From: a virus
Virus record (IMG/VR): IMGVR_UViG_3300037961_002618
Coordinates: 1 to 21,425 of that record
DNA: 21,425 nucleotides
Reading direction: 5' to 3' (one strand)
A program made the position numbers and the translations under genes. This document shows positions 6,621-21,425 of this stretch, one piece after another. Position 1 is the first letter of the stretch; each line of letters opens with the position of its first letter. A model generated the notes under the pieces. It was not told where the DNA came from. It ran no database searches and saw only the letters and a program-made list of their open reading frames with translations.

Positions 6621-7258
6621 TGGTTACGATCCGATTGGTTGGTGAAGCTGGACGCAAGTTTGGCCGCAAGTTTCAGTTAGCGATCAAGACGCCTGCAGAA
6701 GGCCTGCGAGCTTTGATGCTGCAGATCCCTGGCCTGCGGGAATACTTGCTGGAATCGGGTGACAAGGGTGTCGCTTGGAAGGTGATAACTGATTACGCGC
6801 AAGACGGCATTGATGAAGAGCAGTTGCTGTGGCCAATTAGTAAACGGCTTGTCCTTGCGCCAGTTCCTGTTGGTCGTGGCGGTGTCGGCAAGATTGTGGC
6901 TGGTGTGGCGTTGGTGGCCTTTGCAGTTATCACCGCTGGCGCTGGTTTGATTCCAGGCCTTGGCTTGGGATTTGGCGCTAGCACCGCTATTGGCATTGGC
7001 GCAATTGGCGCTTCAATGATTTTTGGCGGCGTGGCAGAGCTTCTAACGCCAACGCCTAAAATGCCGAATGTGCCTAAATTTGGCGGCTCAAGCCCAACTG
7101 CGGGTCGCAGCGAGGTTCAACAGTTAAATTCATTTACGTTTGACAAGTCAAACGCCAACACAGTCCAAGGCGACGTTGTGCCGGTGCTGTATGGGGAACG
7201 TATCATTGGTGCATTGCCTGTCCTTTCGTTCGGCCTTGAGCTGCAAAATCACCTGTAA
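6620..7258 (+). CDS. I: Tail assembly protein I-like
   Basis: A 212-residue protein of the lambda gpI family. The N-terminal half is a ubiquitin-like beta-grasp (IRLVGEAGRKFGRKF, then helix EGLRALMLQIPGLREYL). A Gly/Ala-rich hydrophobic stretch follows (about residues 90-137, with KIVAGVALVAFAVITAGAG). The C terminus contains GDVVPVLYGERIIGALPVLS, the conserved closing motif of the family. It helps assemble the tail tip, in the order K-I-J, and is not clearly a lasting virion component in lambda. TAATG overlaps join it to K and to J. The hydrophobic middle could span a membrane. Confidence 0.88.
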   Translation: MVTIRLVGEAGRKFGRKFQLAIKTPAEGLRALMLQIPGLREYLLESGDKGVAWKVITDYAQDGIDEEQLLWPISKRLVLAPVPVGRGGVGKIVAGVALVAFAVITAGAGLIPGLGLGFGASTAIGIGAIGASMIFGGVAELLTPTPKMPNVPKFGGSSPTAGRSEVQQLNSFTFDKSNANTVQGDVVPVLYGERIIGALPVLSFGLELQNHL

Positions 7259-10200
7259 TGGACAGTGACATTCAAGCCACGGAAGTAGAAGTTAGCGGCG
7301 CTGGCGGCGGTGGTGGCGGGCGGTCACGTCCCAAAACTGTTGTTAAGCAAACAATCGTTCAAGCTCCTAAGCCGCGACAGCCGGTTGAGGCGGCTAACAA
7401 TCTTTTTTCGGTTGCATTCGCTAAAACTGTTTACGCGTTATCTGAAGGTGAAGTAGAGGGGTTCCCAAACGGTATTGAAAAAGATGTTTATTTAGATGGC
7501 GTCCCAATCCGCAACCCCGACAATACAGCAAATTTTGAAGGTTTTATACTTGACCATCGTGACGGGGATGATGCGACTCAAACTCCGATCTCAGGTTTTA
7601 ATCAGGTAGAAAATACTGTCGCAGTAAATGTTGCAGTCACAAAAGCCAGTGGGGCGATTAGCCGAACAATTACTGATACAGATATTGAGCGTGCAAGGAT
7701 TATTATTTCGCACCCTGCACTGCAAACTCAAAATCAAACAAATGGTGACATTAGCGGCACTTCGGTAAGCTACAAGATTGAAGTCAATTCGAATGGCGGA
7801 GCGTTTACTACGGTTAGCACGCCAACTGTCTCAGGTAAATCAAATAGCGAATTTCAAAGGGCGTATGAGTTTGACCTGCCTGGAACGGGGCCTTGGGTTT
7901 TGCGTGTCTCCCGCGTAACCGCAGACAGCACTTCTGCTTTCATTCAAAATGCTTTTTCTTGGCAAAGTTACGTTGAAATTATTGATGAAAAATTTGCTTA
8001 CCCAAACACAGCATGTGTTGCGCTAAAAGTTGACGCCAGGCAATTTAATACTATTCCTGACGTATCCGTAAAGTTGCGAGGCAAGCGCGTTCAGGTGCCT
8101 ACAAATTACGATGCGGCGACCCGAACTTACACGGGGCTGTGGGACGGGACTTTCCAGATGGCATGGACAGATAATCCTGCTTGGATTTTTAGAGATATTG
8201 TTTTAAACGAAAGATTTGGCGTTAAACGTTACGCGAAGTCGCTTAGCATTGACCCTTGGTATCTTTACACAATTAGCCAGTATTGCGATCAACTTGTGCC
8301 TAACGGTGCAGGGGGATCTGAGCCGCGCTTTACGTGCAATGTTTATTTGCAAAATCCAGGCAGCGTGTATGACGTACTCAACGCGTTGGCCTCTTGTTTC
8401 CGAGGTTTAATTTATTACAGCGAAGGTGAGTTGTATTTAACTCAAGACCGTTTGCAAGATCCTGTTCAGCAATTTAGCGAAGCAAACGTTATTCAGGACG
8501 TTGCAGAAAACGGTGAGGTGTCTTCACCTTGTTTCTCTTACGCGGGCTCCGCTCGCGCAGCGCGTAAAACTGTCGTGCTTGCGAATTGGGACGATCCTAA
8601 TCAGGTTTACAGTTCAGTCACTGAGTACCAGCAGGACGATGAAATGCTGGAAAAACTTGGATATAACCCTGTTGATCTTCGCTTGATTGGCGTCACTTCT
8701 CGCGGCCAAGCTTTGCGAGCTGCCAAACATACGTTGTTCAGCGATCGATACGAAACAGAAAAAGTAAGTTTTCGAATTGGAGCGGAAGGTTTGGCCGCTG
8801 GCGTTGGGGAGGTCATACAAATTGCTGACCCTCTCAAGCAAGGCCAGCGTTTAGGCGGTCGAATACGTGCTGTTGATGGAGACGAGATTACGATTGACGC
8901 ACCGCTAACGCTGCAGTCTGGAACTGCGTACACGCTGACTCTTGTGGTGGTAGACGGTGAAACTTTGACAAATGCAGATGGCACAAAAACTGTTCGGCCA
9001 AAACTAGAGGCCGTTAACATTTTAAGTTCAACAGTTAATGAAAATGACGGTTCAACCACGATTAAGGTTAGCAGCGCGGTAGCTACGCAAGCAGGCGCTT
9101 TGTGGGTTCTTGAATGGTCTGCAATGCAAGCCGCTCTTTACAGGATTATTTCAATCGCTGAAACAGAGCCTTTAATCTACCAAGTTGAAGCAATCCAATA
9201 TAACAACAGTAAATATGGATACGTTGACAATGATTTGCCAGTTGCCATCCCTAAAGATCGATTTCAGGTTAGGGAAGCAGCCGTGCCAACTGACCTTGAC
9301 GCAGATCTTGACTATTCAAATGGTCAAACTTCAATTCTTGCGACGTGGAGAGCGCCTCAAGTTAATGGCGCAGATGATTTATTGATAAGAGGTTACAGGT
9401 ATCAATGGCGCAAAATCAACGACACTGAATGGCATGATGTTGTTGACGTGCAAGGAACAGTTGCTGAGATCCCGCTTCAAAATCACATTTTTGGCAACAA
9501 GTACGAGGTGCGTGTTGCTTCTGTTAATCGCTTAGGCAGCCAATCAGACTGGGTTGTCTATGAAGTTGAAAACTTCCCCCCTATCCCTGACTTGAGTGAC
9601 GTGGCTTTTGGGGCAACACTTACTCACGCAAGTCAGCCTGACGGGACGCACCTGCTGATTGTTGACTCTGGAACGTGCCCAATCCCTGAGCGTATTAACG
9701 GTTATCGCTGCTGGGTAAAGCCGCGCACTTTAACCACTGGAGAGATCCCAGGTGTCAAGCCTCCGAATGAAGAGGGTTGGTATTTCTTGGCGGACATTCC
9801 GCTTACCGGCTATTACACCCAAGCGTTCCACGCGCCAGACACTTATGACGTGCGTGTTAATTTTACCAGCGCAATTTTTGGGGAAGAGCCGACAAATTAC
9901 ATTTTTGATCTAGTCGAGCGCGATGAGATTGCTCCGCCAACTCCGAGCAATTTTGGGGTTGTTGAAAATCAAAACAGCAGTGGCAAGCGCTTTAGCTGGC
10001 AGTTGCCATTAAGCATTTACGGGAGCTGGGACCAAAGTGTAGTCGCAGACGTTATCGCTTATCAGGTCAGATTTAAGAAAGGGCCGTTGGCAACAAATAT
10101 AATTGAATTTGATGTTGCGACTGATTTAATTTCAATTAAGACAGGCACCGTTATCGGCACAAAGGTCAATCAACACTTACTTACGGTTGGTGAAGAGATA

Positions 10201-11856
10201 AAATTTGCCGCTTCTACTGGAACTTTGCCTACAGGAATTGTAGACGGAATTACTTACTTTGTGGCGGCAGATGGTTTTTCAAGTGTAGCTTTCAAGGTAA
10301 GCGCGACACAGGACGGTGCCCCGATTAGCCTGAGCGGCACTGCAAATGGCAAATACAACGTAGCCGGTCCTGCTGCAATTAAAAAACGTCTTGATTTGCA
10401 GGCATCTTGGTTTGCAGGCATTGAACTTGCTTCAGGCGGATTGCCTGCTCAGCAGCAATGGTTTGAAACGAGTTTGTTTGATACAGATACTTGGACTGTC
10501 ATGGTAAAAGCAGTTGACGCAACTCAATGGCGTTCTGACATTCCTGCTTTTGTGCTAGTTAACATTGGTGCGCCGCCTGTAAGCAACGCGGTTCAGACTG
10601 TTAACGCAAAAACACAAGGCCCAGGCAATTGGCCAGGTGTTAAAGATAATTGCGAAGTTAGCGGCGGCAATCTTGTTCAAATTAACCCTGAATTGGACAG
10701 TATTTTTACTTGGAATTTTGACAACAACAATCTAGAAAGCGCACTTCTGCTTAACACAACTTCGACTTCAACTTATCAGCATAAATTAGTTGCTTTGACC
10801 GGCGAAAAGCTTGGGCTTGTAAGCGAGGGGCAGTCTTTCGTCACATTTGATGCGACGAGCGACACAGTGACTACTGTTCAAGGTACACCTCCTTCACTTA
10901 GCCCGATAAATCATGGGCTTGCGGTAAATGATCAAGTCAGGTTCATAGTCAACACGACTCCTTTCTCTTTGCCAAGCGGCATTACTGTCGGCACAACTTA
11001 CTTTGTCATAGCGTCAGGCTTAACCGCGAGTGCTTTTAAAATTAGCGAGACCTTGGGCGGAGCCGCTGTTGATATAGGTAGTTCAGGCGGAAGTAGCAAG
11101 GAATACAGTGTCGTATTCTTTAATGACGGTGGTCAAGGCGTTCCAATAGATATTGAAGACAAGCCGCTTGTTATTGATGTCGCTAATAACAATTTTTCTT
11201 TGCAGCGGAATGGCGCTACTATCAGCCACGGCTTAGTCTTAAATGACACGCTTAAGTTCGTAGTCATTAGCGGATCTTTGCCGTCTGGCATTTCTGCCGA
11301 CGTTGTTTACCATGTCGTGTCCACGGATTTGACTGCAACGACTTTTAGGATTGCTGCTACTCAAGGAGGCACAGCCATTGAGTTAAGTGGTTCTGCGAGC
11401 GGCACCTATGCAGCAAGAGGGTTCCAGCTTTTGGCTGAGCAACGATTTTATTCAGATCAAGAGCTAGCAAATGGTGGTGTTGTTCACCCTTATGCACCGT
11501 TTGAAAAATTGCTTGGCGACGTTTACCGCGTGGTAACAACCTTTAAGAGCCCAGATGGTGGAACGGAGATTGGCAATATCACTGAACTCACAGCGCAGCT
11601 GGACTATCCAGACGTAGTGGAGAAGCAGAACGACGTGGCGGTTTCCAACGTGGCATCTGGAACGGTTATCAACCTCGCCAAGACGTTTAGGCAGATCAAA
11701 AGCGTAACCATCACCGCGCTGCAGACGACAACAAACCCAAATGTAGTGACCGCTGTGGTTAGGGCAAAAAGCACCAGCTCGGTTACGATTAGTTGTCTGA
11801 ACTCAAGCGGCAACCCTGTTGCTGGTGAGGTTGACATTTTGGTGATTGGTTTCTAA
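7258..11856 (+). CDS. J: Central tail fibre / host specificity protein J-like (tip attachment)
   Basis: A 1532-residue protein of the gpJ type. A poly-Gly linker near residues 15-21 leads into the conserved core (about 45-640), with LSEGEVEGFPNG, VYLDGVPI, NPAWIFRDIVLNERFG and a tip domain III region (SARAARKTVVLANWDDPN to GEVIQIADP). FN3-like domains follow from about 675, with WRAPQVNGADDLLIRGYRYQ and a third at about 892-1104. Three related beta modules of about 75-90 residues interrupt the C-terminal half. The last 80 residues form a beta domain (TVINLAKTFRQIKSVTITAL to the end) common at gpJ C termini. The trimer forms the tail tip and binds the host receptor; lambda J is 1132 residues, so this is about 400 longer. 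The ATG overlaps the I stop. Confidence 0.92.
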   Translation: MDSDIQATEVEVSGAGGGGGGRSRPKTVVKQTIVQAPKPRQPVEAANNLFSVAFAKTVYALSEGEVEGFPNGIEKDVYLDGVPIRNPDNTANFEGFILDHRDGDDATQTPISGFNQVENTVAVNVAVTKASGAISRTITDTDIERARIIISHPALQTQNQTNGDISGTSVSYKIEVNSNGGAFTTVSTPTVSGKSNSEFQRAYEFDLPGTGPWVLRVSRVTADSTSAFIQNAFSWQSYVEIIDEKFAYPNTACVALKVDARQFNTIPDVSVKLRGKRVQVPTNYDAATRTYTGLWDGTFQMAWTDNPAWIFRDIVLNERFGVKRYAKSLSIDPWYLYTISQYCDQLVPNGAGGSEPRFTCNVYLQNPGSVYDVLNALASCFRGLIYYSEGELYLTQDRLQDPVQQFSEANVIQDVAENGEVSSPCFSYAGSARAARKTVVLANWDDPNQVYSSVTEYQQDDEMLEKLGYNPVDLRLIGVTSRGQALRAAKHTLFSDRYETEKVSFRIGAEGLAAGVGEVIQIADPLKQGQRLGGRIRAVDGDEITIDAPLTLQSGTAYTLTLVVVDGETLTNADGTKTVRPKLEAVNILSSTVNENDGSTTIKVSSAVATQAGALWVLEWSAMQAALYRIISIAETEPLIYQVEAIQYNNSKYGYVDNDLPVAIPKDRFQVREAAVPTDLDADLDYSNGQTSILATWRAPQVNGADDLLIRGYRYQWRKINDTEWHDVVDVQGTVAEIPLQNHIFGNKYEVRVASVNRLGSQSDWVVYEVENFPPIPDLSDVAFGATLTHASQPDGTHLLIVDSGTCPIPERINGYRCWVKPRTLTTGEIPGVKPPNEEGWYFLADIPLTGYYTQAFHAPDTYDVRVNFTSAIFGEEPTNYIFDLVERDEIAPPTPSNFGVVENQNSSGKRFSWQLPLSIYGSWDQSVVADVIAYQVRFKKGPLATNIIEFDVATDLISIKTGTVIGTKVNQHLLTVGEEIKFAASTGTLPTGIVDGITYFVAADGFSSVAFKVSATQDGAPISLSGTANGKYNVAGPAAIKKRLDLQASWFAGIELASGGLPAQQQWFETSLFDTDTWTVMVKAVDATQWRSDIPAFVLVNIGAPPVSNAVQTVNAKTQGPGNWPGVKDNCEVSGGNLVQINPELDSIFTWNFDNNNLESALLLNTTSTSTYQHKLVALTGEKLGLVSEGQSFVTFDATSDTVTTVQGTPPSLSPINHGLAVNDQVRFIVNTTPFSLPSGITVGTTYFVIASGLTASAFKISETLGGAAVDIGSSGGSSKEYSVVFFNDGGQGVPIDIEDKPLVIDVANNNFSLQRNGATISHGLVLNDTLKFVVISGSLPSGISADVVYHVVSTDLTATTFRIAATQGGTAIELSGSASGTYAARGFQLLAEQRFYSDQELANGGVVHPYAPFEKLLGDVYRVVTTFKSPDGGTEIGNITELTAQLDYPDVVEKQNDVAVSNVASGTVINLAKTFRQIKSVTITALQTTTNPNVVTAVVRAKSTSSVTISCLNSSGNPVAGEVDILVIGF
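10130..10366 (+). repeat. Beta module copy 1 inserted in J
   Basis: Encodes residues about 957-1036 of the J-like protein. The pattern is LLTVGEEIKF, then GTLPTGIVDGITYFV, then FKVSATQDGAPISLSG and G-K-Y-N-V. It interrupts an FN3-like domain: the strands ending in AYQVRFKKG lie before it, and TWTVMVKAVDATQWRS lies after. Copies 2 and 3 share its ordered motif set. Confidence 0.7.
10850..11119 (+). repeat. Beta module copy 2 in J
   Basis: Encodes residues about 1198-1288. The pattern is NHGLAVNDQVRFIV, then LPSGITVGTTYFVI, then FKISETLGGAAVDIG and E-Y-S-V. It aligns by eye with copies 1 and 3 along its whole length, although the DNA is well diverged. Confidence 0.7.
11170..11415 (+). repeat. 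Beta module copy 3 in J
   Basis: Encodes residues about 1305-1386. The pattern is SHGLVLNDTLKFVVISGSLP, then SGISADVVYHVV, then FRIAATQGGTAIELSG and G-T-Y-A-A. It is the copy closest to the C-terminal beta domain and is separated from copy 2 by about 17 residues. Confidence 0.7.
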
Positions 11857-19674: not shown

Positions 19675-19848
19675 ATGAACAGACCTGACCCGATGATCCC
19701 CTGCAAGCCTGGGGCGGAGGATGTCGAAGCGATGTCCAACAGGGTGCTCTGGTTAGACCATCTTTACGTGCGAGATGGTCGAGATGACCCTAGCCATGAG
19801 CGTCATGGCTTTTACACTGGCTTAGCCATTAAATATCAAAACCGGTGA
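19675..19848 (+). CDS. Small conserved-looking phage protein (57 aa)
   Basis: ATG 19675 directly abuts the previous TAA, and the frame runs 57 codons to TGA 19846-19848, which overlaps the next start. The protein is soluble and charged, with CKPGAEDVEAM, RVLWLDHLYVRDGRDDPSHE and RHGFYTGLAIKYQ. The W-L-D-x-L-Y...DGRD-x-P-x-H...YTGLA pattern looks like a small protein I associate with marine cyanophage fibre regions, where it has no known function. No signal peptide is present. The tight fit between neighbours and the lack of any other way to explain this gap support it as a real gene. Confidence 0.75.
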   Translation: MNRPDPMIPCKPGAEDVEAMSNRVLWLDHLYVRDGRDDPSHERHGFYTGLAIKYQNR

Positions 19849-20033
19849 TCAAATTGGTTGCAGCAACACTGCTTGGTGTTGGGCTCGCTTTTGGTTCTGC
19901 TGCTTTGTCACACCACAAGTACGTTCCAAGCACGTCAGTGGACATAACAGAAAATGGAAACCTCACCACTACCGAAAATGCAGAAAGCCAGTACGGTAGT
20001 CACGGAAAAAACGTACCTCACGTCCACCAATGA
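19845..20033 (+). CDS. Small exported histidine-containing protein
   Basis: A 62-residue protein starting at GTG, overlapping the previous stop by four bases. Residues 1-22 form a signal peptide (MIKLVAATLLGVGLAFGSAA, then LS), with likely cleavage before His23. The mature part is about 40 residues, polar, and has five histidines (HH at its start, then S-H-G and H-V-H-Q at its end), which could bind a metal. There is no lipobox cysteine, so it is not a lipoprotein. The ATGA overlap couples it to the exported beta-barrel-like gene that follows, so the pair may act together in the host envelope. The function is unknown. Confidence 0.6.
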   Translation: MIKLVAATLLGVGLAFGSAALSHHKYVPSTSVDITENGNLTTTENAESQYGSHGKNVPHVHQ

Positions 20034-20392
20034 TCAAAAAGCTTGTTTTTGGTGCAGCCGCTGGCGCACTTGCCTTGGCTCCCCTCTCTGCAGCAAAGGC
20101 TGATGGCTTCTACCTAAACCCCGAATGGAACGGCGCTTGGAGCGGTTCTAACTTTGGTGGCGCTGTCATGGACGGCCATGTGGGCTGGGAGAAAGGCGCT
20201 TTCTACATTCAGGGTGGTCCTTCTTGGCTGCAGCCTGATGGTGGCGACACTGAAGTTGGTTTCTCTGCAAAGACCGGTGCTAGCGCACCACTTTCTGACT
20301 CCATTGATCTGTACGGAGAGGTTTCCTTCGCAAAGTACGAAAACATTGACGCAGGTTATGGCCTGAAACTTGGCGGCAAAGTCAAGTTCTGA
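20030..20392 (+). CDS. Exported outer-membrane beta-barrel-like protein
   Basis: A 120-residue protein. A signal peptide (MIKKLVFGAAAGALALAPLS, then AAKA) is probably cut after Ala24. The mature 96 residues alternate hydrophobic and polar residues in strands with aromatic girdles (GHVGWEKGAFYIQGGPSWL, then IDLYGEVSFAKYENI). The last strand, GYGLKLGGKVKF, ends in a C-terminal Phe, the signal recognised by the BAM machinery for outer-membrane proteins. That fits about 6 strands, small for a porin. It resembles porin-like proteins I associate with cyanomyovirus genomes. It may alter the host surface, for example to block other phages, but that is inference. It is the last gene before a terminator. 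Confidence 0.65.
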   Translation: MIKKLVFGAAAGALALAPLSAAKADGFYLNPEWNGAWSGSNFGGAVMDGHVGWEKGAFYIQGGPSWLQPDGGDTEVGFSAKTGASAPLSDSIDLYGEVSFAKYENIDAGYGLKLGGKVKF

Positions 20393-20493: not shown

Positions 20494-20733
20494 ATGCAAA
20501 AGTACATCAACATTTTGGCGGTAGGCGGATTTGCTCTTGCTGTCGCCAACTCTGCTCTTGTTGTAGTTGCTGTGGTGCGTGGCCCAGCGCTTGTCGAAGA
20601 AAACTTAGACAAGATTCAGGCATTGATGATTGAAAAGATGCACAGTGCTCTTAGTGATTCTGTGACTGAGGCAATGCCCAGCCAAGTCAAGGAAATGATG
20701 CCCAGCACGACTGGTCCTGCTTTGCCTTTCTAG
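20494..20733 (+). CDS. Small one-TM membrane protein
   Basis: A 79-residue protein. ATG 20494 is chosen because GGAG lies at 20484-20487; a longer GTG-initiated frame from 20443 runs through the terminator and is unlikely. Residues 5-28 (INILAVGGFALAVANSALVV) form one membrane segment. The rest is a helical, Met/Glu-rich soluble tail (LDKIQALMIEKMHSALSDSV) ending TTGPALPF. It could be a holin-like or virion membrane-interacting protein, but a single TM and a long tail are not diagnostic, and no lysis enzyme is seen nearby. TAGTG couples it to the next gene, with which it probably works. Confidence 0.65.
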   Translation: MQKYINILAVGGFALAVANSALVVVAVVRGPALVEENLDKIQALMIEKMHSALSDSVTEAMPSQVKEMMPSTTGPALPF

Positions 20734-21341
20734 TGGCCGAGATTCCGACAATTGGCGTTGACAGGGTTTGGGTAAACGCTCCAGTCCTGTCAGTGCCTGC
20801 TGCGCCGCCAGTAACGGTCAATATCGGCGTGCCAATTATCGACATGCCTACGTTTGACCCAATGGATTTTAGGCCACAGCAGTCGGTCAAAGATCCTGAA
20901 GCGGTGTTGCCCAAACCGTCTAGTCCTGAAGCACCACCACCTCCAGCGACACCCACGCTGCCATCTGCGAAGCCTGCTGCTGTCGATGTAGATCCAAGAT
21001 GTCCTCCCCTTCGTGCGAAGGAGGTTGGAACGCTTGTCCAAAACGGTTCAAAAAGAATTGCGGGCTACGAGATACAAGACGGTAAATGCGTCGTCTTGTA
21101 TGAAGAGATCAAGTTGCCTGAACAAGTTCTAGCAGCAATTCCTTCTTTACCGCAGGTCACGACGGTGGGAGTTACGGCTGCTGTTGGTGTGACTGCTGGT
21201 CTAGCAACGCCGTTGTTGCTCAAAGCGGTAAAGCCTGCCGTAAAAAAAGCGATCTTGAAAGTTAAGGCTTTGCTGGGGCGTAAGGCGAAACCGGTAAGCG
21301 TATTTGAGAGGAGACGGGCGCAGCGGTTGGCACGGAAATAG
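20733..21341 (+). CDS. Pro-rich protein with C-terminal TM and basic tail
   Basis: A 202-residue protein starting at GTG within TAGTG. The order is: an N-terminal hydrophobic-Pro segment (EIPTIGVDRVWVNAPVLSVP), a Pro-rich linker (about 63-88), a small beta domain with two cysteines (about C90 and C119, around SKRIAGYEIQDGKCVVLYEE), then a hydrophobic segment (about 146-170, TTVGVTAAVGVTAGLATPLL) and a strongly basic tail (KKAILKVKALLGRKAKPVSV, ending RRRAQRLARK). I associate this layout with marine cyanophage genes near the fibres, of unknown function. The basic end could bind nucleic acid or membrane phospholipid. The two cysteines could pair if the domain lies outside the cytoplasm. Confidence 0.65.
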   Translation: MAEIPTIGVDRVWVNAPVLSVPAAPPVTVNIGVPIIDMPTFDPMDFRPQQSVKDPEAVLPKPSSPEAPPPPATPTLPSAKPAAVDVDPRCPPLRAKEVGTLVQNGSKRIAGYEIQDGKCVVLYEEIKLPEQVLAAIPSLPQVTTVGVTAAVGVTAGLATPLLLKAVKPAVKKAILKVKALLGRKAKPVSVFERRRAQRLARK

Positions 21342-21342
21342 T

Positions 21343-21425
21343 GTGCCTGTGCGGCAGAACTTGCCCTGGCTTGGGCTTAATTACAACATCGGCGCAGACA
21401 GCAAAGTAAGGCGACTTGGGGTGAA
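21343..21425 (+). CDS. 5' end of a further gene (partial)
   Basis: A GTG at 21343, one base after the previous TAG, opens a frame that stays open to the window edge and encodes PVRQNLPWLGLNYNIGADSK then VRRLGV. A GGAAA six bases upstream could serve as ribosome binding site. Coupling and a protein-like composition (aromatic, polar) support it. It would continue the small-gene cassette. Too little is present to name a family. Confidence 0.55.
   Translation, partial: MPVRQNLPWLGLNYNIGADSKVRRLGV

Follow-up and report, generated by a model that had tools for sequence, protein, structure and literature searches.

A putative outer-membrane-like barrel and its coupled, histidine-containing exported peptide in a lambda-type cyanosiphovirus

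Lambda Lom is a small, phage-encoded, outer-membrane-type barrel, one whose gene is found downstream of J in the late operon, and Cor is a lipoprotein. The Cor of phages phi80 and N15 gives rise to superinfection exclusion, that is, through inactivation of FhuA (PMC11436027). Also described is the family PF24653 (phrog_417, PhCOG173, T4-GC 241), which is found in 450 phage records and which the work we found, under the label 'DUF680', treats as a nutrient-response gene, without structure. Considered here is a member of that family along with a small, histidine-containing peptide that is encoded immediately upstream, both as found in IMG/VR virus record IMGVR_UViG_3300037961_002618. This complete, 21,425-base record is ‘the window’. 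An earlier note on this DNA had proposed that the two genes represent a dedicated, undescribed envelope-modifying pair. The joint reading favored here, at a probability of roughly 0.6, is of a phage-made, minimal outer-membrane barrel which would alter the infected cell's surface, accompanied by a small, coupled, exported peptide.

The barrel is not undescribed but instead matches an already annotated family, Pfam PF24653, ‘Cyanophage outer membrane protein like beta barrel domain’, over residues 1-120 of its 120 (E 6e-28, 98 bits versus a cutoff of 27), and it matches phrog_417 as well (E 1.3e-26). Envelope modification stands as the leading idea, though not as the work of a small undescribed unit. 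What is new is the coupled peptide along with the six-strand reading of the barrel, the barrel family itself being already known.

That six-strand reading comes from AlphaFold2, which for the mature barrel alone predicts six strands of 12-15 residues each (predicted local distance difference test, pLDDT, 94.7; predicted template modeling score, pTM, 0.76) and which over 59 family members likewise predicts six strands, with the leader of low confidence. By VIA-align the mature barrel scores Z 9.4-10.6 against OprF, OmpA, and a designed transmembrane barrel, and the whole domain is placed onto the last six strands of OprF, OmpA, OmpX, and OmpW-type barrels at Z of about 8-10.6; avidins, at about 7, score below these outer-membrane barrels. 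An alternating pattern of hydrophobicity runs along the strands (permutation p = 1e-4). The 13 invariant positions are all on the polar face, which carries nearly all of the charges as well, among them E32, D48, E54, K81, E97, K113, and K117. The C-terminus, KLGGKVKF, reads as a motif resembling the beta-signal, which is seen in 58 of 59 relatives with its Lys and Gly invariant. An outer-membrane-like fold therefore is likely, as modeled, for this PF24653 protein, and the earlier suggestions of a terminal Phe following amphipathic strands, and of a small barrel targeted to the beta-barrel assembly machinery (BAM), hold up, the latter as a prediction.

The two open reading frames (ORFs) were indeed found to be adjacent and to share an ATGA overlap, at the positions which had been claimed (Table 1). 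Both products are predicted to be exported through Sec-type signals, also as claimed. Particularly, when 23 window genes were scored for hydrophobic N-termini (a segment with a mean Kyte-Doolittle, KD, value of at least 2 over 11 residues), just three possessed one, i.e., those of the peptide, the barrel, and the next gene along (20443/20494-20733). Peptide and barrel each have a K/R n-region as well as small residues ahead of the cleavage site, and cleavage, as read by eye, is predicted between ALS and HH in the peptide and between AKA and DG in the barrel. Leader columns vary more than mature columns in the barrel alignment, which fits a cleaved leader, and among relatives quite different hydrophobic leaders are attached to near-identical mature barrels. 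Comparison of contigs shows both frames to be conserved, with a ratio of nonsynonymous to synonymous change (dN/dS) of about 0.12 for the mature barrel and about 0.40 for the peptide, the latter implying a protein which is real if loosely constrained. Neither protein has Cys. As the overlap is retained in every informative relative, the two genes probably are translationally coupled.

By the reading favored here, the barrel would be translocated by Sec and, carrying a BAM/Omp85 beta-signal, would insert into the outer membrane of an infected Synechococcus-type cell as a barrel of six strands whose charged/polar core is conserved. The peptide gene, in this siphovirus clade, would be translated just ahead of the barrel through the stop/start overlap, and the exported 40-residue peptide probably would remain in the periplasm, there binding metal or the barrel. 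The export signals, fold, and polar core are predictions which computation supports, and insertion of the barrel into the membrane is what we infer. So small a barrel, charged on the inside, is not expected to form an open pore, and its likeliest effect therefore is on the surface of the infected cell. That the barrel alters or masks the outer membrane, thereby changing further phage adsorption, injection, or the membrane barrier as with Lom- or Cor-type lambdoid genes, is put forward tentatively, at somewhat short of even odds. A host outer-membrane-modifying protein, one that would be Lom-like in position and general anatomy, is the best reading overall.

Various points weigh against this. 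Both the surface-effect step and the role of the peptide are things that we infer. Foldseek matches to the PDB are weak, with a best E of 0.085, so the fold class is likely rather than proven, and barrel closure, via strands 1 and 6, is presumed. An outer-membrane barrel that was monomeric and had just six strands would be smaller than the natural ones known, and the protein may therefore oligomerise or instead be a soluble barrel. Data on homologs, lastly, are compatible with a phosphate-stress or a virion role as well (PMC6224464, PMC9146016), with a host-specific cost, a phosphate role, and membrane carry-over all possible. The boldest version of the idea, that PF24653 is the smallest natural monomeric transmembrane barrel (six strands rather than eight), is phage-delivered, alters the cyanobacterial outer-membrane surface, and in some cyanosiphoviruses is metal-loaded or plugged by a dedicated secreted histidine peptide, is quite unlikely.

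The 450 PF24653 records, found using tblastn, nearly all are named as Synechococcus, Prochlorococcus, or cyano- phages, and include cyanomyoviruses as well as cyanopodoviruses. The gene adjoins psbA in S-RIP1 and nrdC in Syn19, there as T4-GC 241, while in S-TIM5, S-H68, and S-SCSM1 tandem, divergent paralogs, the second ones confirmed as members, immediately precede pstS. The ‘DUF680’ label, which along with PhCOG173 is how cyanomyoviruses are annotated for this family, looks to be inherited, as no DUF680 model was among the Pfam hits of those PF24653 proteins that were scanned. Genome contigs supplied five barrel matches, with three of these (L145, L146, and L147) in phage-like contigs, the first two carrying the same phage neighbor genes; for L148 and L149 the motifs searched for were not found. 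A cellular homolog, and thus a host origin, was not established from these five matches. L147 (NZ_RMVE01000006.1) is a 188-kb contig of a Nonlabens xiamenensis assembly and has the phage gene order of cyanophage P-TIM40, that is, a barrel of matching sequence, a halogenase, thyX, and phoH, and so, as judged from these genes, probably is contamination of the reference genome.

Tandem paralogs found just before pstS, as in S-TIM5, S-SCSM1, and S-H68, raise the prospect of a phosphate-stress auxiliary, with the barrel, together with the phage's PstS, altering outer-membrane access for phosphate or organophosphate, and proving costly when nutrients are plentiful. Consistent with such a cost, ORF224 of phage S-TIM4 (a PhCOG173/‘DUF680’ protein which is PF24653 at E 2.2e-31) accumulated mutations during experimental evolution in replete medium: its 13 mutations, many of them disruptive, totalled about 100% in every population grown on Synechococcus WH8102, with none on Prochlorococcus hosts (PMC6224464). 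The authors ascribed this loss to nutrient-replete growth and tied PhCOG173 to phosphate limitation (PMC6224464), and Pho boxes have been reported upstream of DUF680 in some phages (PMC9146016). Loss on a single host could equally mean host-specific toxicity, however, and the barrel, being small and having its polar core filled, would make for a poor pore. Nor are Pho-box-like sites in excess in the window (18 matches versus 21.9 expected), where the barrel gene is found behind tail genes rather than adjoining pstS or psbA. A phosphate role for the window's barrel is doubtful.

Alternatively the barrel may be a virion component, or be virion-borne, e.g., upon attached pieces of host outer membrane, and aid the next infection. 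The earlier note had held that virion proteomics finding the protein to be an ordinary, non-exported virion component would count against its proposal, and for homologs the proteomics are mixed. S-SZBM1_90, confirmed here as a PF24653 member, was detected in particles purified using caesium chloride (CsCl), by liquid chromatography–mass spectrometry (LC-MS), at 2 peptides and 25% coverage (PMC9146016), while S-TIM4 ORF224 was classed as not particle-associated (PMC6224464). The window's barrel gene does come after tail-fibre genes, but a cleavable Sec signal is unexpected in a capsid or tail part, and detection in particles may reflect membrane carry-over. A virion role is rated as unlikely.

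Also to be considered is lysis, in which the small exported proteins would disrupt the outer membrane as infection ends, alongside the membrane-anchored protein of 20494-20733. A few kb further downstream, relatives do have small membrane genes along with a C39-like endolysin, and in KBS-S-2A the corresponding place has small membrane genes and, as read from sequence, a likely endolysin. A spanin-type lipobox is not present, however, disruptors typically are not conserved, tightly folded barrels, and the homologs of myo- and podoviruses are near psbA, nrdC, or pstS rather than near lysis genes. A lysis role on balance is improbable.

Turning to the peptide, cleavage as predicted yields 40 mature residues with five His (H23, H24, H53, H59, and H61), in agreement with what had been described. 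The mature peptide would begin His-His and it finishes H-x-H; over a 12-sequence alignment H23, H24, H53, and H59 are invariant and H61 nearly so. Relatives are found on 14 viral contigs, with no match among phage isolates nor among cellular genomes (GTDB genomes), and with nothing significant in Pfam, PHROG, NCBIfam, PADLOC, or PDB. On these searches the peptide is new. Metal binding by it is a guess from composition. The peptide was also considered as a source of the barrel's missing hairpin, which was rejected by eye, since its possible strands are shorter and more polar than a membrane hairpin would allow. Separately, the proportion of synonymous differences (pS) is 0.27 in the mature peptide (19911-20030), versus 0.50 in the leader and 0.55 in the mature barrel, possibly due to nucleotide-level constraint right before the barrel start.

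Among the 14 peptide contigs, 11 include a complete PF24653-type gene that overlaps in the same way, two break off just within the barrel, and one breaks off within the peptide, i.e., in 13 of 13 informative contigs the barrel is directly downstream with that overlap. These downstream barrels are of two divergent types, and no tight co-evolution with one barrel thus is evident. In the reverse direction, 43 contigs of the closest barrel set include five with the His peptide, 24 with the phrog_516 basic peptide, 12 with neither, and two which are too short, so that the barrel stands without the peptide in 36 of the 41 that are informative, as it also does in barrel-bearing isolates. The co-occurrence that was proposed therefore holds in one direction, with the peptide never seen without the barrel but the barrel usually seen without the peptide. 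From this, dependence runs one way, that of the peptide on the barrel, and the peptide would act solely with the barrel. While the barrel is widespread, the peptide is an optional addition to it that is confined to a clade. The strong form of the earlier note, that of an obligate, dedicated two-component envelope unit, is very improbable, since despite the barrel always following the peptide with the same 4-base overlap, most barrels have no such peptide and the peptide occurs with two divergent barrel types.

In most related contigs (L013, L023, L025, and others) the place of the His peptide, just ahead of the barrel, is taken by that phrog_516 peptide, which is 41 residues long, basic, and ends KTRQGDGSHSKPSHGRKKYRGQGKR. 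In L010 and L027, which have no His peptide, a short stretch of DNA some 45 bases ahead of the barrel resembles the peptide gene's 3' end. The resemblance is weak (alignment scores of 20-23 versus a shuffled maximum of 17-18.5), with none for L003, a contig of the same third upstream class, and the stretch possibly is a decayed His gene or instead a shared leader.

The window virus infects aquatic cyanobacteria, and its genes form a lambda-type siphovirus operon, with a tail module consisting of tape measure, a phrog_31 J protein, and then tail-fibre-like and small genes. By J protein its closest isolate is cyanosiphovirus KBS-S-2A (69% identity across 69% of J), whose host is Synechococcus WH7803 and whose late region, where read, has neither a His-peptide nor a barrel gene. 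Late expression of the pair is suggested by its location behind the tail genes; no sigma-70 promoter or terminator exceeding chance was found near the pair. Features are collected in Table 1. The two genes following the barrel, of phrog_568 and phrog_570, belong to conserved cyanophage families, and come after the barrel in several relatives; phrog_568 carries the label ‘plasmid stability’ for no obvious reason. The window stops, at 21342-21425 on the minus strand, within the 3' end of a phrog_848-type gene. In relatives (L057:6440-8335, L046:6368-8410) this minus-strand block consists of phrog_848, phrog_650/DUF6322, phrog_564, and a DUF6450 protein, some of whose proteins have signal-peptide-like starts, and beyond it are small membrane genes and then a C39-like endolysin.

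Table 1. Positions of the gene pair, of its context in the window, and of paralogs before pstS in other phages
Feature	Position	Strand	Remarks
J protein	7258-11856	same as barrel gene	upstream of barrel gene; phrog_31, E 1.7e-225
57-aa conserved gene (RPDPMI...)	19675..19848	+	upstream context; stop overlaps His-peptide start codon as GTGA; no family match
His-containing exported peptide, 62 aa, GTG start	19845..20033	+	predicted signal peptide 19845-19910, mature 40 aa 19911-20030
ATGA stop/start overlap, His-peptide gene/barrel gene	20030..20033	+	kept in each His-peptide contig reaching the overlap
PF24653/phrog_417 beta-barrel, 120 aa	20030..20392	+	predicted signal peptide 20030-20101, mature barrel 20102-20389
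Beta-signal-like motif K-L-G-G-K-V-K-F (polar-x-Gly-x-x-hydrophobic-x-Phe)	20366..20389	+	C-terminal
79-aa membrane-anchored protein, phrog_568	20494..20733	+	downstream context; alternative GTG start 20443
202-aa Pro-rich protein, phrog_570	20733..21341	+	context; hydrophobic stretch near C-terminus
Tandem PF24653 paralogs upstream of phage pstS	L061:3932-4837, L064:4932-5848, L065:3932-4857		S-TIM5, S-H68, S-SCSM1

With the barrel read as exported, BAM-signalled, and six-stranded, the published loss-of-function result for S-TIM4 can be tested as an effect on the outer membrane, and the reading would matter to how cyanophages remodel the envelopes of photosynthesisers that are abundant in water. 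A membrane barrel of six strands, if true, would be of interest to membrane-protein biologists as well, and the coupled peptide offers a natural with/without comparison.

In comparison with known systems, the window's barrel is like PF24653/phrog_417 proteins in its full-length match, length, signal peptide, strands, and terminal Phe. Those homologs usually lack the His peptide and are near psbA, nrdC, or pstS, however, whereas the window's member is in a lambda-type siphovirus operon with a coupled peptide. With Cor the likeness is by analogy only, that of a small phage-encoded protein changing an outer-membrane receptor, and the window's pair differs in having neither Cys nor lipobox. The N-terminal barrels of OmpA and OprF have last six strands onto which VIA-align places the window's model (Z 9.7-10.6, with Foldseek matches weak) along with a polar core, but the window's barrel is without their first hairpin, their peptidoglycan-binding domain, or a match to their sequence families. 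In the comparison with Ail-Lom-OmpX proteins, the model superposes by VIA-align on OmpX/OmpA, over six of eight strands at Z of about 8-10, though with six predicted strands versus eight and with no match to the Ail_Lom family at E <= 1 in the Pfam scan. As with lambda Lom, the barrel gene is downstream of J (phrog_31) and on the same strand, its lateness being judged by position.
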